From the NCBI GenBank assembly GCA_019192445.1, contig JAHCMK010000005.1:186001-250000 (forward strand): 64,000 bases of DNA, written 5' to 3'. The stretch comes from Oceanococcus sp. HetDA_MAG_MS8 (GTDB lineage: Bacteria; Pseudomonadota; Gammaproteobacteria; Nevskiales; Oceanococcaceae). The translations under genes were made by a program, and so were the position numbers. The notes beneath the pieces are model-generated. The model worked only from the letters and a program-made list of their open reading frames with translations. It ran no database searches and was not told the origin of the DNA. Shown piece by piece: positions 2,521 to 44,943 of the stretch (within the stretch, counting starts at the first letter, position 1; each line of letters opens with the position of its first letter).

Positions 2521-3113
2521 TCGCTAAATCCCTCTTTGGGAGCCTGCATCTCGGCGGCTGAGCCAATTTTGACGCGCAAAGAAAACTCTGAGAGTCGGCG
2601 GCGGTTGCTCTCTTTGGCGCGAATGAAAACCAGCCTGGGCTGATGCATCCATTCGGATGCCTCAATGTTGCGGATGTAGGTGGAAACGCGTCCATTAGAT
2701 TCGGCAATACCATCGATTTGCGTATCACCTTCACGCTGTTCGACGCGGGTGAGGTACAGCCCGTCGGGAACCGTTTTCACCAATTCGTCAAAAAAGTGCA
2801 CGGTTTCAGCGCGACTTTGTTGGAGTTTTTCAATGACCTGTGTCCGTGCAATCAGGTCTTCGCGCAGCTTTTCCAGGTCCTTAATTTCCTGGATTTTGGC
2901 TTCGGTGAGCTTGATTTCCTGACTCAGGCGCTGGTTGCGGTCCTGTTGCCCCCGGAGTTGGGCCTGATACACCTGCATGATGCCGAAACCCAGCAAAAAG
3001 CCAGCAAAGGCCCCACCACCCAGCATGGCCATAAAGCGTTTTTGGCGAGCTTCTCGACGAGCCGCGCGCCAGTCCAGCAGGTTGACCCGAATTTCGCCTG
3101 GAAGACGGTTCAT
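2517..3113 (-). CDS. pilN: Type IV pilus assembly protein PilN
   Basis: Inner-membrane bitopic protein (198 aa). The N-terminal segment RVNLLDWRAARREARQ matches the INLLPWR motif by which PilN docks in the groove of PilM, with Asp replacing Pro. A transmembrane helix follows (about 27-48, AMLGGGAFAGFLLGFGIMQV), then a coiled coil and a periplasmic domain that dimerises with PilO. It overlaps pilM and pilO by four bases each. Confidence 0.95.
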   Translation of the reverse strand: MNRLPGEIRVNLLDWRAARREARQKRFMAMLGGGAFAGFLLGFGIMQVYQAQLRGQQDRNQRLSQEIKLTEAKIQEIKDLEKLREDLIARTQVIEKLQQSRAETVHFFDELVKTVPDGLYLTRVEQREGDTQIDGIAESNGRVSTYIRNIEASEWMHQPRLVFIRAKESNRRRLSEFSLRVKIGSAAEMQAPKEGFSE

Positions 3114-4180
3114 AGATCGCCTCCGCGCATGCCCAGGCCCATGGCTACCAGTAGCCCAGGAGCTTCTGTGCGTGCGATGGTGCGCCTGAGGTTCGGCCCC
3201 ATACTGACCTGAGCAAGGGGATCAACCAGTTCGCACTTCACGCCCAGCTTCTCTTCTATGGTTTCGGGCAAGCCTGGAATGCTTGCGGTGCCGCCTGCAA
3301 AGAGCATGCGGTCCACGCTGGTGTAGGTATTGGTGTTGGCAAAAAACAACTGCAAAGCACGATCAATTTGCTGCGCCAAATCGTCGATGAAGTAGGGTAG
3401 AACTTCGCTAGGGTAGTCTGCTGGGAGGGTGCCATTGCGCTTACCCTCTTCAGCCTCAGCCGCGCTCATGCCGTAATGACGCATGATGTCTTCGGTGAGC
3501 TGGCGACCGCCAAAGTTTTGCTCACGTCTATAGATGGGGCTATGCCCATCGATCACCGATAACAGGGTGTGATGTGCGCCGATGTCACACACAAGCGTGA
3601 CCCCGTGGCTTTGCGGTGGAATGGCGAAGTGCAGAATAGCGTTATCCAGCGCGAACTCTTCGATATCGACAACTTTGGCCGTCATGCCGGCCGCTTCAAC
3701 CGCTGCCAGTCGTTCGTCGATGGTTTCAGAACGGCAGGCCGCCAACATCACCTTCAGCTGGCCATCAGCGTGTTCGGCATTCCCGAGCACGGTGAAATCC
3801 AGGTTGACCTCTTCAATAGGATACGGAACGTACTGGTCCGCTTCCAAACGGATTTGCTCCTCCATGTCCCGCTCAGACAAGCTGGCTGGAAGGGTGATCA
3901 CTTTGGTAATCACAGGGCTGCCAGTCACAGCCACAGCAGCGTCTCGGCTGTTGACATTCAGTCGCCGTAGTAGCCGCGACAGAGCCTTGCCGACCTCTTC
4001 GGGTTCGGCAACCTGTCGATCATTCATCGCTCCCGTTGGCAGGTCAGCCCGCCCGCAAGCCAACAGCTCAAAGCCGTGACTCGTGGGACGCATCTCCGCC
4101 ACTTTGACGGATCCGCTGCTGATATCCACCCCAACGAGGCTGTGGTCCTTCCCCCCAAACAATCGGATGTTTCGCCTCAT
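3110..4180 (-). CDS. pilM: Type IV pilus actin-like ATPase PilM
   Basis: Cytoplasmic FtsA/actin-fold ATPase (356 aa) that binds the PilN N-terminus and couples the pilus machine to the inner membrane. Visible motifs are the phosphate-1 loop (LVGVDISSGSVKVAEM), phosphate-2 (VCDIGAHHTLLSVIDG) and the adenosine loop (LFAGGTASIPGLPE). I start it at the ATG at 4180 because GGGAG sits five bases upstream. A TTG at 4192 would add four residues but overlaps that ribosome-binding site. It is the first gene of pilMNOPQ and divergent from the PBP1A gene, as in pseudomonads. Confidence 0.95.
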   Translation of the reverse strand: MRRNIRLFGGKDHSLVGVDISSGSVKVAEMRPTSHGFELLACGRADLPTGAMNDRQVAEPEEVGKALSRLLRRLNVNSRDAAVAVTGSPVITKVITLPASLSERDMEEQIRLEADQYVPYPIEEVNLDFTVLGNAEHADGQLKVMLAACRSETIDERLAAVEAAGMTAKVVDIEEFALDNAILHFAIPPQSHGVTLVCDIGAHHTLLSVIDGHSPIYRREQNFGGRQLTEDIMRHYGMSAAEAEEGKRNGTLPADYPSEVLPYFIDDLAQQIDRALQLFFANTNTYTSVDRMLFAGGTASIPGLPETIEEKLGVKCELVDPLAQVSMGPNLRRTIARTEAPGLLVAMGLGMRGGDL

Positions 4181-14343: not shown

Positions 14344-14619
14344 TTAAGGATTCGCTGCCTTTTTGGCCAGATCAGCGGCGGCGAGCGCTTCAGCGATGCA
14401 GCCCTCGTAGTCTTTGCCAATTCGCTTGGCCTCAGCGCTGGCAATTTTGGCCGAGGCTTGCAACAGGTCGCCATTGAGTTTCGCAAGGCCGGACTTCGCC
14501 GCGCGGGCCGAGTCTACAGCTTGGCTGGCGCGCGTGATTTGTCGGTCACAGCGGCTTGCTGGCTCACAGGCGGTGAGGAATAGACTGGCAGTAATGATGT
14601 AAAGGGCCATTCGCAGCAT
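14344..14619 (-). CDS. Small putative lipoprotein, helical
   Basis: 91 aa with a lipoprotein signal (MALYIITASLFLTAC, acylated Cys at about 18) followed by Glu at +2. The mature part is Ala/Lys-rich and predicted helical (QAVDSARAAKSGLAKLNGDL), resembling Lpp-like or colicin-type spacer proteins, without a family I can name. AGGAAC lies about seven bases before the ATG. The candidate sRNA terminator at 14693-14721 sits 74 bases upstream on the same strand, so that RNA could also be an attenuated leader of this gene. Confidence 0.7.
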   Translation of the reverse strand: MLRMALYIITASLFLTACEPASRCDRQITRASQAVDSARAAKSGLAKLNGDLLQASAKIASAEAKRIGKDYEGCIAEALAAADLAKKAANP

Positions 14620-14692
14620 GGGTTGTTCCTAGAACATGAAACGGGGCGAGCTCTGCGTGGCACTGTGACACGGATGAGCACCGCTCTGCTGC

Positions 14693-14721
14693 AAAAAAGA
14701 ACCCGCCTCCTGGGCGGGTTC
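14693..14721 (-). terminator. Rho-independent terminator of the candidate sRNA
   Basis: Perfect 9-bp stem GAACCCGCC/GGCGGGTTC with a five-base loop, followed on the minus strand by six U residues. No annotated minus-strand gene lies upstream of it, so it is an orphan terminator. Confidence 0.85.
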
Positions 14722-14778
14722 GGACAGATCGCCACACTTTGCGAGGTGGACTTGGATTGGGGGGAAGACTTCATCTGT
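14693..14778 (-). ncRNA. Candidate Fur-controlled small RNA
   Basis: Predicted ~86-nt transcript starting near the A at 14778 and ending in the U-tract at 14693. The 5' end ACAGAT can pair with ATCTGT just before the terminator (14724-14729), closing a domain. An inner hairpin CCAC/GTGG and a C-rich single-stranded stretch (CTTCCCCCCAATCC) lie inside. The promoter overlaps a Fur-like box. No coding frame fits. The sequence is not recognisably RyhB or PrrF, so the class is inferred from architecture alone. Confidence 0.5.
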
Positions 14779-14784
14779 GAATAA

Positions 14785-14813
14785 ATAATAATGGGAACCA
14801 TTCGCAAAAGCAA
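14785..14813 (-). promoter_or_regulatory. Sigma-70-like promoter overlapping a Fur-like box
   Basis: On the minus strand TTGCTT (14813-14808), a 17-base spacer and TATTAT (14790-14785) make a good promoter. Bases 14805-14787 (GCGAATGGTTCCCATTATT) match the 19-base Fur consensus at 12 positions by my count and include the dyad AATGG-nnn-CCATT. A repressor there would occlude the -10 region. The same box lies 139 bases upstream of the plus-strand lipoprotein gene. Confidence 0.5.
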
Positions 14814-14943: not shown

Positions 14944-15528
14944 ATGCATAACTTCCGATTCGCATTCCTCACGGTGACACTGAGTTTGGTCCTCAGTGCT
15001 TGCGACAAAGACACCGGCGCGCAGCCAGCGACTCCGCAAGTCGGCCAGAGCAGTTCCAAGGCTATGGCCCGCGTTTCGCCGGCCTCAAAGAAGGCTCTGG
15101 CAGAGTATGAAATGGTGGCTCGGGATTTTCTGCAGGGGATAGAAGCCGATGCTTCGGTCCAGCAGCTCCGACCAATGGCGCAGCGCATGCTGGACTTGGG
15201 CGTCTCAGTCGTACCGGACTACGTGACTGCGGTTCCCGATTGTCAGCGCTATCTGGAGGAGGCTGCAAAAATCGAGTCGCGCTGGTCAGAACTTGACCCA
15301 GAAGTGATCGAGCGCGATTACCACCAAGACGGCGCCTTGCCGCCCATGCCCAATAATGTGGACTGCTACCACATGAAAGATGTGGTGGTGCATCCAGCAA
15401 CGGCTCTGGCCTTACTAGCTCAGCCAGAAGTGGATCGCGATCAGGTGCGGCTGGAAATCTTTGAAGTAGTGAGTCACGCCATTGCGGTGCGTACCGGGAG
15501 TGGCTTCAACAGCGACGACGGCGACTGA
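14944..15528 (+). CDS. Putative lipoprotein of unknown function
   Basis: 194 aa from the ATG at 14944, which has TGAGG seven bases upstream; an ATG at 14929 would place five residues before the signal. The lipobox LSAC is followed by Asp, the classical +2 inner-membrane retention residue. The mature part is mostly helical with a conserved-looking NVDCYHMKDVVVHPATALAL containing Cys and His residues that could bind metal. It is six bases upstream of the DUF1513 gene, so the two are probably cotranscribed. I do not recognise the family. Confidence 0.75.
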   Translation: MHNFRFAFLTVTLSLVLSACDKDTGAQPATPQVGQSSSKAMARVSPASKKALAEYEMVARDFLQGIEADASVQQLRPMAQRMLDLGVSVVPDYVTAVPDCQRYLEEAAKIESRWSELDPEVIERDYHQDGALPPMPNNVDCYHMKDVVVHPATALALLAQPEVDRDQVRLEIFEVVSHAIAVRTGSGFNSDDGD

Positions 15529-15534
15529 GTCTGA

Positions 15535-16617
15535 ATGCGTAGGCGTCAGCTTCTGGGTGGTTTGGCGGCGGGCGCGCTGCTGGGGGCCGGTGGTTCTGCT
15601 TGGCACATCACCCGATCCCGACAGGGAATGCTGGTGAGCTGTGTTCGCAAGACAAGTGGCGGTTATGCGGTGGTTGCCTTCGATCCGGTGACGGCCGAGG
15701 TGTACTGGGATTGCCTCTTGCCGGCGCGTGGTCATGCGATTGCTGTGAGCCCTGGTGGCGATCACCTCGCAGTCTTCGCTCGGCGGCCAGGGCAATGGGT
15801 GTGGATTATTGCAGCCCAGGATGGGAGGCTACTGCGCACCCTGGCTGTGCCGAATAAGGCCCAATTTAATGGACATGGACTATTTGCAGCTGATGGACAG
15901 CAGGTCTGGGTGTCGGCCACCTCCTATGCGACACATGGCCAGCCTCGCGGCGAAATTCTCCAGTTTGATTGGGGCCGTGCGCGGCTAGAGCAGCGCTGGT
16001 CTTCAGCCGGACTGGACCCCCATGAGTGCGCCCTGCATGGAGATTGTCTCGTGGTTGCAAATGGCGGTTACGCTGAGCAGTACGCCAACGGCGATGACAA
16101 GCGCTTAGTCGCCGAGCAGCCGCCTAATCTGGCCTGGCTGGATGCAGCGACCGGCGGTGTTAAGCGTATTGATACCTTGGCGGATCCCAAGCTCAGCATT
16201 CGACATCTGGACGTTGGGCCACAGGGGGTTTTTGTCGGTTTCCAGCATGCCGATGGCCCTCTAGCTCAAACCCCACTATTGGGCCGCGCGCGCAGTAACG
16301 GCCCCTTGGTCATGCTGGAGCCTCCCGTCGAGGGTTGGGAAGCGTGGTATGGCTACGTTCTGAGTGTTCACCTGCAGGCGAATAAAGGGCAGGTCTTGGC
16401 AACCAGCCCGCGTTCGGGGCGCATGGGAGTTTGGGATGCCTTGAGCGGCGCGGCTTTGCAGAGTCGGCCTTTGGCGGATGTGTCAGGAGTGGCGGCTCAG
16501 GGTGATTCTTGGTGGGCCAGCTCCGGCCATGGCGTGATTGCCGGTGCTTCGCAAGAGCGTTATCTCATGCCGAATTGGCAATTTGACAACCATATGGTTG
16601 CGATTCCACGCGCATAA
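15535..16617 (+). CDS. DUF1513 family exported protein
   Basis: 360 aa with an N-terminal Arg-rich export signal (MRRRQLLGGLAAGALLGAGG) that looks Tat-like. The mature part is a seven-bladed beta-propeller-like series of repeats (VSPGGDHLAVFARRPGQWVW, FAADGQQVWVSATSY, NAHEC-type segments), as in DUF1513 proteins. From memory, relatives in Pseudomonas and Vibrio sit beside imelysin lipoproteins in iron-regulated operons. No imelysin gene is present here, only the small lipoprotein upstream. A role in periplasmic iron handling is therefore inference, supported by the Fur-like box upstream. Confidence 0.82.
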   Translation: MRRRQLLGGLAAGALLGAGGSAWHITRSRQGMLVSCVRKTSGGYAVVAFDPVTAEVYWDCLLPARGHAIAVSPGGDHLAVFARRPGQWVWIIAAQDGRLLRTLAVPNKAQFNGHGLFAADGQQVWVSATSYATHGQPRGEILQFDWGRARLEQRWSSAGLDPHECALHGDCLVVANGGYAEQYANGDDKRLVAEQPPNLAWLDAATGGVKRIDTLADPKLSIRHLDVGPQGVFVGFQHADGPLAQTPLLGRARSNGPLVMLEPPVEGWEAWYGYVLSVHLQANKGQVLATSPRSGRMGVWDALSGAALQSRPLADVSGVAAQGDSWWASSGHGVIAGASQERYLMPNWQFDNHMVAIPRA

Positions 16618-44750: not shown

Positions 44751-44943
44751 GAGTCTGGGGGACCGCCTGTGCCGCTATCCGCATATCCCTTGAGACGAAG
44801 TCTCAAGTGGGTGCCGCCCCGTCACCTTTAGGCTTCCCGCACAAGTGCAGGCATGCTCACCGGCGCGGACGACGACTCCCGGGATACCGTAATTGGCTCA
44901 AGGGGTTCATTTGGAAAGAGCGAACACGGCAGCCACACCCAGA
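44751..44943 (-). ncRNA. ssrS: 6S RNA
   Basis: Regulatory RNA of about 193 nt that binds sigma-70 RNA polymerase in stationary phase. On the minus strand it contains CCCCTTGAGCC, GCCGGTGAGCATGCCT, AAGCCT and a CTTGAGACTTCGTCTCAAGG hairpin, which line up with the E. coli 6S core (GGTGAGCATGC and AAGCCTTA). The ends TCTGGG and CCCAGA pair to close the molecule. Location between zapA and fau is the conserved gammaproteobacterial site. Ends are estimated from the promoter and the closing stem. Confidence 0.88.

Follow-up and report, generated by a model that had tools for sequence, protein, structure and literature searches.

The accessible portion of PMC11005374 gives RyhB, PrrF, NrrF and FsrA as examples of Fur-dependent small RNAs (sRNAs), and points out that Caulobacter has no identified sRNA belonging to the Fur regulon. 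RyhB, PrrF and NrrF, together with HrrF and BrrF as far as the excerpts available for these two describe them, are short intergenic RNAs with a Fur box over the promoter and a terminator of their own. IsrR of Staphylococcus, in the accessible part of PMC9410917, and FsrA of Bacillus, in the text available on it, are Fur-controlled RNAs that pair near Shine-Dalgarno sequences through C-rich regions, which in IsrR are single-stranded. For the part of the tree to which Oceanococcus belongs, our literature search found no iron-responsive sRNA.

Here we analyse a window of 64,000 nucleotides, the whole stretch of DNA under study, on contig C5 of the Oceanococcus genome (G000). We consider it likely that positions 14693–14813 of this window are the gene for a Fur-repressed sRNA of ~86 nt. 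A preliminary description had seen at this locus the layout of RyhB- and PrrF-type RNAs without their sequence, and both halves of that statement hold: the layout is present, and the candidate matches no Rfam family. It differs from RyhB, PrrF, NrrF, HrrF and BrrF in this lack of an Rfam sequence or structure match, and also in the lack of a bias towards iron proteins among its predicted targets. With IsrR and FsrA it shares a C-rich stretch, but IsrR, in the same part of PMC9410917, has ~174 nt and three C-rich regions versus ~86 nt and one or two here, and both RNAs come from bacteria, and have sequences, unrelated to the candidate's. Fur-repressed sRNAs are a known kind; the candidate would be new in function and outside the known sequence families.

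Layout of the locus

The candidate lies in a divergent intergenic region of 324 bases, flanked by a small minus-strand lipoprotein gene and a lipoprotein–DUF1513 operon on the plus strand. Genes were called with a simple custom script. The features are the following.

14693–14778, minus strand: predicted small RNA of ~86 nt, the promoter-to-terminator distance, with its start placed from the −10 element
14699–14721, minus strand: intrinsic terminator stem-loop of 9 bp, 7 of them G-C, then TTTTTT at 14698–14693
14743–14767, minus strand: C-rich stretch CUUCCCCCC ... CCACCUC, proposed seed region, from the folds
14785–14813, minus strand: sigma-70-type promoter TTGCTT-17-TATTAT, −35 at 14813–14808 and −10 at 14790–14785
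14787–14811, no strand assigned: Fur box AATAATGGGAACCATTCGC with flank, lying over the promoter from −35 to −10
14344–14619, minus strand: small predicted lipoprotein gene (ORF), downstream of the candidate RNA on the same strand and perhaps transcribed by read-through
14944–15528, plus strand: divergent lipoprotein gene, start taken at 14944
15535–16617, plus strand: gene for a DUF1513 protein, the second in the divergent operon (PF07433, E 4.4e-61)

The predicted RNA consists of ACAGAUGAAGUCUUCCCCCCAAUCCAAGUCCACCUCGCAAAGUGUGGCGAUCUGUCC, followed by the terminator (14721–14699), which begins 57 nt after the predicted start, and six T. Its ATG frame scores −36 in the coding model, which is strongly non-coding. 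Antisense to it, an ORF with a TTG start (14623–14784, plus strand) scores 17.6, a value reached by 152 of 6,761 spurious shadow ORFs; we therefore did not take this ORF as a gene, and it is left out of the intergenic counts given below. Being intergenic and non-coding, with a promoter and a terminator of its own, the candidate has at the sequence level what is expected of an iron-sparing sRNA.

Searches with the Rfam covariance models of RyhB, PrrF and NrrF gave no match by the candidate RNA, even at permissive settings. The permissive search returned P9 and other families, all of them sub-threshold. P9 (RF00624), an sRNA of Pseudomonas, has nearly the same terminator as the candidate and also a AUUAUUAU stretch, but the candidate's AUUAUUAU aligns from within the promoter and not from within the RNA. 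We rejected membership in this family, the score of 29.2 bits, versus a gathering score of 43, being carried by the terminator. Elsewhere in the window, at 44756–44938 on the minus strand, is a 6S RNA (88.6 bits), the window's sole Rfam match above the gathering score.

Fur box, promoter and terminator

The Fur box had been proposed from a 12/19 match to the consensus. This count is correct for the minus strand, and the plus strand gives 13/19, but a 12/19 match taken alone is noise: 20 Markov shuffles contained 8–33 sites of at least 12/19 per 64 kb. Since the count is worthless as evidence, we built a matrix from native Fur sites. The pattern AATGRKAAYCATTMTCATT, with up to three mismatches, gave 60 matches in six genomes versus 1 for a backwards control. 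Among the matches listed, the genes downstream, identified by reading their translations, include bfd, a ferredoxin reductase, a heme ABC transporter, hemP, iron-binding proteins and TonB receptors. The candidate box is matched by the pattern on both strands. The resulting matrix has 25 columns and is made from 36 of 42 unique sites in the candidate's own genome and five related ones; it omits L052, which is the candidate, and five sites excluded by eye (L064, L070, L087, L109 and L095).

By this matrix the candidate scores 22.4 bits and ranks third in 1.264 Mb, and the reversed-sequence control reaches a maximum of 17.4 bits. Native Fur sites, each left out in turn, score from 16.9 to 36.1 bits. 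Over 2.015 Mb of the genome there are 10 matches above 14 bits, with the candidate at rank 4. Six of the 36 matrix sites come from its own genome, including both sites that outrank it in the 1.264-Mb sample, and these two fall at one heme-uptake locus. The 31-bit box at G000:C2:292071-292095 (L053) directly follows a heme ABC transporter ATPase gene and precedes a short gene on the minus strand whose product resembles a heme-degrading monooxygenase; with its flanking heme genes it probably forms a single heme-uptake locus. Patterns made from exact variants of the candidate site matched nothing but the site itself in its own and related genomes, and the classical GATAATGATAATCATTATC, with up to three mismatches, had no match in the genome. 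Genes for Fur (G000:C1:609041-609496) and for Hfq are both present.

The 17-base-spaced promoter said to overlap this box was borne out. By a sigma-70 matrix, TTGCTT-17-TATTAT ranks fifth among the window's 127,938 positions. Over 2.0 Mb of the genome, 106 of 4,030,208 positions score as high, and 59 of these 106 lie among the 406,290 intergenic positions. A consensus promoter scan omitted it, because it has 8 of 12 matches and the scan needs 9. The sigma-70 matrix, the stacking energies and the protein motifs are background values. Judged from sequence, a predicted Fur site thus overlies the promoter, as it would in a member of the Fur regulon.

The terminator, described beforehand as an orphan of 9 bp with six U residues and no same-strand gene upstream, is indeed one. 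A strong terminator is found in only 1 of 140 divergent intergenic regions of 120–800 nt, namely the candidate region; elsewhere, strong terminators occur in 25 of the 81 regions between convergent genes and in 22 of the 296 between co-directional ones. When the 10 Fur matches above 14 bits (2.015 Mb, both strands) were examined for a terminator within 160 nt, the candidate alone had one. From the Fur score, the promoter rank and the orphan terminator, we conclude that a Fur box which is genuine by the standard of these genomes, a top promoter and a terminator meet within ~120 bases.

Conservation, fold and alternative readings

Stem and terminator had also been expected to be conserved in relatives, and this expectation failed. 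In a DNA search of 60 other genomes, including one of the same genus, the candidate sequence is not kept, and only pieces the size of the terminator match. Partial matches with E up to 0.1 in five genomes (G005, G021, G044, G045 and G050) all fall in the terminator segment of the query, and a second match in the candidate's own genome covers the stretch upstream of the promoter. Synteny is not kept either: in G001, G002 and G003, yicC is followed by unrelated genes, and the arrangement is lost even in the same-genus genome. That genome is distant, with YicC at 64% identity, and none of the genomes searched is a close relative; the missing conservation is therefore better seen as a gap than as an argument against the candidate.

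The proposed closure of the RNA on itself (ACAGAT/ATCTGT) forms in the minimum free energy (MFE) fold, but it is at chance level, with z relative to shuffles at +0.11 for the 5′ body and −1.36 for the whole 86 nt. With a 5′ part that is no more stable than its shuffled versions, the argument from the fold fails. The C-rich stretch fared better in part: CUUCCCCCC is unpaired in both the MFE and centroid folds, as had been claimed, but CCACCUC is partly paired. We infer that the stretch at 14743–14767 may act as the seed.

The Fur box could instead belong to the divergent plus-strand operon (14944, DUF1513), with the minus-strand promoter and terminator being incidental or minor. A relative of the 14944 lipoprotein in G007 has its own Fur box of 28.5 bits just upstream and a TonB receptor adjacent downstream, so that the candidate box is explicable without an RNA. 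The same Fur box and receptor suggest an iron-uptake role for the lipoprotein–DUF1513 pair (14944–16617, plus strand); our literature search found no paper naming DUF1513. Another relative, in G006, has a weak site of 15.1 bits, which is inside the range of noise matches. However, the box has only weak promoters on the plus strand, the best ranking 224 versus rank 5 for the minus strand, and the plus-side end of the box is ~132 nt from the start of the plus-strand gene. Assigning the box to the operon would also leave the sole strong terminator in 140 divergent regions unexplained. Both the weak promoters and the orphan terminator speak against a box that serves the plus strand alone, and we consider this assignment unlikely.

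It is more doubtful still that the RNA is a 5′ leader of the small lipoprotein gene (14344–14619), with the terminator as its attenuator. The gene is on the same strand and starts ~80 nt past the terminator, and between the two there are only weak promoters, the best of them, GTGCCA-16-TTTCAT, at rank 142. Against this, neither the MFE nor the centroid fold contains an antiterminator alternative, and Rfam has no riboswitch or leader at the candidate. The gene itself appears to be an orphan: it belongs to no Pfam family, and 60 other genomes contain no relative of it. A chance meeting of promoter-like, Fur-like and terminator-like sequences can practically be set aside: 12/19 consensus matches are common and the sequence is not conserved, but within ~120 bases stand a Fur box that outscores all controls, the only strong terminator of its class of regions and a top promoter.

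We therefore return to a Fur-repressed sRNA gene as the favoured reading. When iron is present, Fur-Fe(II) would sit on 14787–14811 and cover the promoter from the −35 through the spacer into part of the −10. Under iron shortage Fur would be released, and the RNA would begin near 14778 and stop at the terminator (14721–14699). The RNA is probably a trans-acting regulator; most likely, its C-rich stretch would pair with G-rich Shine-Dalgarno regions and block translation, with Hfq helping. Such an action would be like that of RyhB, PrrF and IsrR, from a sequence outside all those families. Fur at the same box, which may be common to the RNA and the divergent iron-linked operon, may regulate the lipoprotein–DUF1513 genes too. 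In this scheme we infer the transcription of the RNA, its iron response, its pairing mode and its targets.

Predicted targets and an analogous RNA in the sister genus

Targets were ranked over 1,699 gene starts of the candidate's own genome by a score of ungapped seed and accessibility; this score replaced a ranking by a full duplex program, in which the pairings were too long to be of use. The best predicted matches of the window RNA use CUUCCCCCC and are not iron genes. The top matches include, judged from their translations, a gene for a large secreted protein and one for a protein resembling pilus-assembly proteins (window 3110–4162). The ranking shows no iron bias: of 35 iron-motif genes, 2 are among the top 5% of the 1,699 (p = 0.33). 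The classical RyhB target, sodB, has a perfect 9-bp match to the window RNA at −25 to −17 and ranks 92nd of 1,699, which is at best suggestive of pairing.

Across the six genomes, a terminator lies within 160 nt at 4 of the 42 unique Fur sites (84 sides). These are the candidate, L106 in G002, L113 in G003, and L096, whose terminator is inside an ORF. L106 and L113 are the same locus in the sister genus, where a Fur box at 1501–1519 is followed by an RNA of ~77 nt at 1529–1605. This RNA has a 9-bp stem-loop and a 12-bp terminator, and its fold z is −6.4 and −6.6 in the two genomes. The two genomes agree at 73 of 73 positions of the RNA (1533–1605), or at 75 of 77 when counted from 1529; the Fur and promoter part is identical at 31 of 34, the upstream gene is 62% identical and the downstream gene 73%. 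By this comparison, it looks like a functional sRNA under selection. Among 117 genomes searched, it is whole or nearly whole in G002 and G003 alone, and six others contain short pieces (E up to 0.01). The locus comes after genes that read as PepSY-type or iron-linked, and before a convergent small gene. We regard this RNA as a stronger sRNA candidate than the window RNA.

The two RNAs are alike in having a Fur box followed by a terminator, at a distance of 52 nt in the sister genus versus 62 nt in the window, and in having C-rich unpaired segments. They differ in that the sister RNA is at another locus and has a strong 5′ stem-loop, which is absent from the window RNA. Homology between them is not supported. 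Plain shuffles (96 of 2,000) had at first been suggestive, but a local score of 20, the value for this pair, also came up in 532 of 17,378 intergenic tiles and in 529 of 3,000 Markov shuffles. The sister-genus RNA thus appears to be an analogue of the window RNA, not a homologue.

For the sister RNA, 366 gene starts in a 400-kb stretch were ranked. Its top target (1 of 366) is rubredoxin, with a perfect 11-bp match across the start codon at −12.2 kcal/mol (mRNA start region G002:C1:327931-328098, in L204); iscR ranks 8th and rlmN 12th. A pairing with sodB, predicted beforehand, failed at rank 317 of 366. Three of eight iron-motif genes are in the top 5%, with a p value of 0.009 that is partly post hoc because the rubredoxin, IscR and RlmN motifs were sharpened after the ranking had been viewed.

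Fur-controlled RNAs seem to arise repeatedly with unrelated sequences. We tentatively suggest that this bacterial family has Fur-repressed iron-sparing RNAs of its own, new as far as we have searched, which are replaced or relocated between genera. This suggestion, which we hold to be possible rather than probable, spans the 86-nt C-rich RNA described here and the 77-nt RNA of the sister genus that is kept nearly letter for letter. The two RNAs provide concrete genes for testing in this group. If the suggestion is true, the sequences of these regulators differ between genera while the Fur box, the length and the terminator persist, which would show the speed at which a regulator can be replaced.
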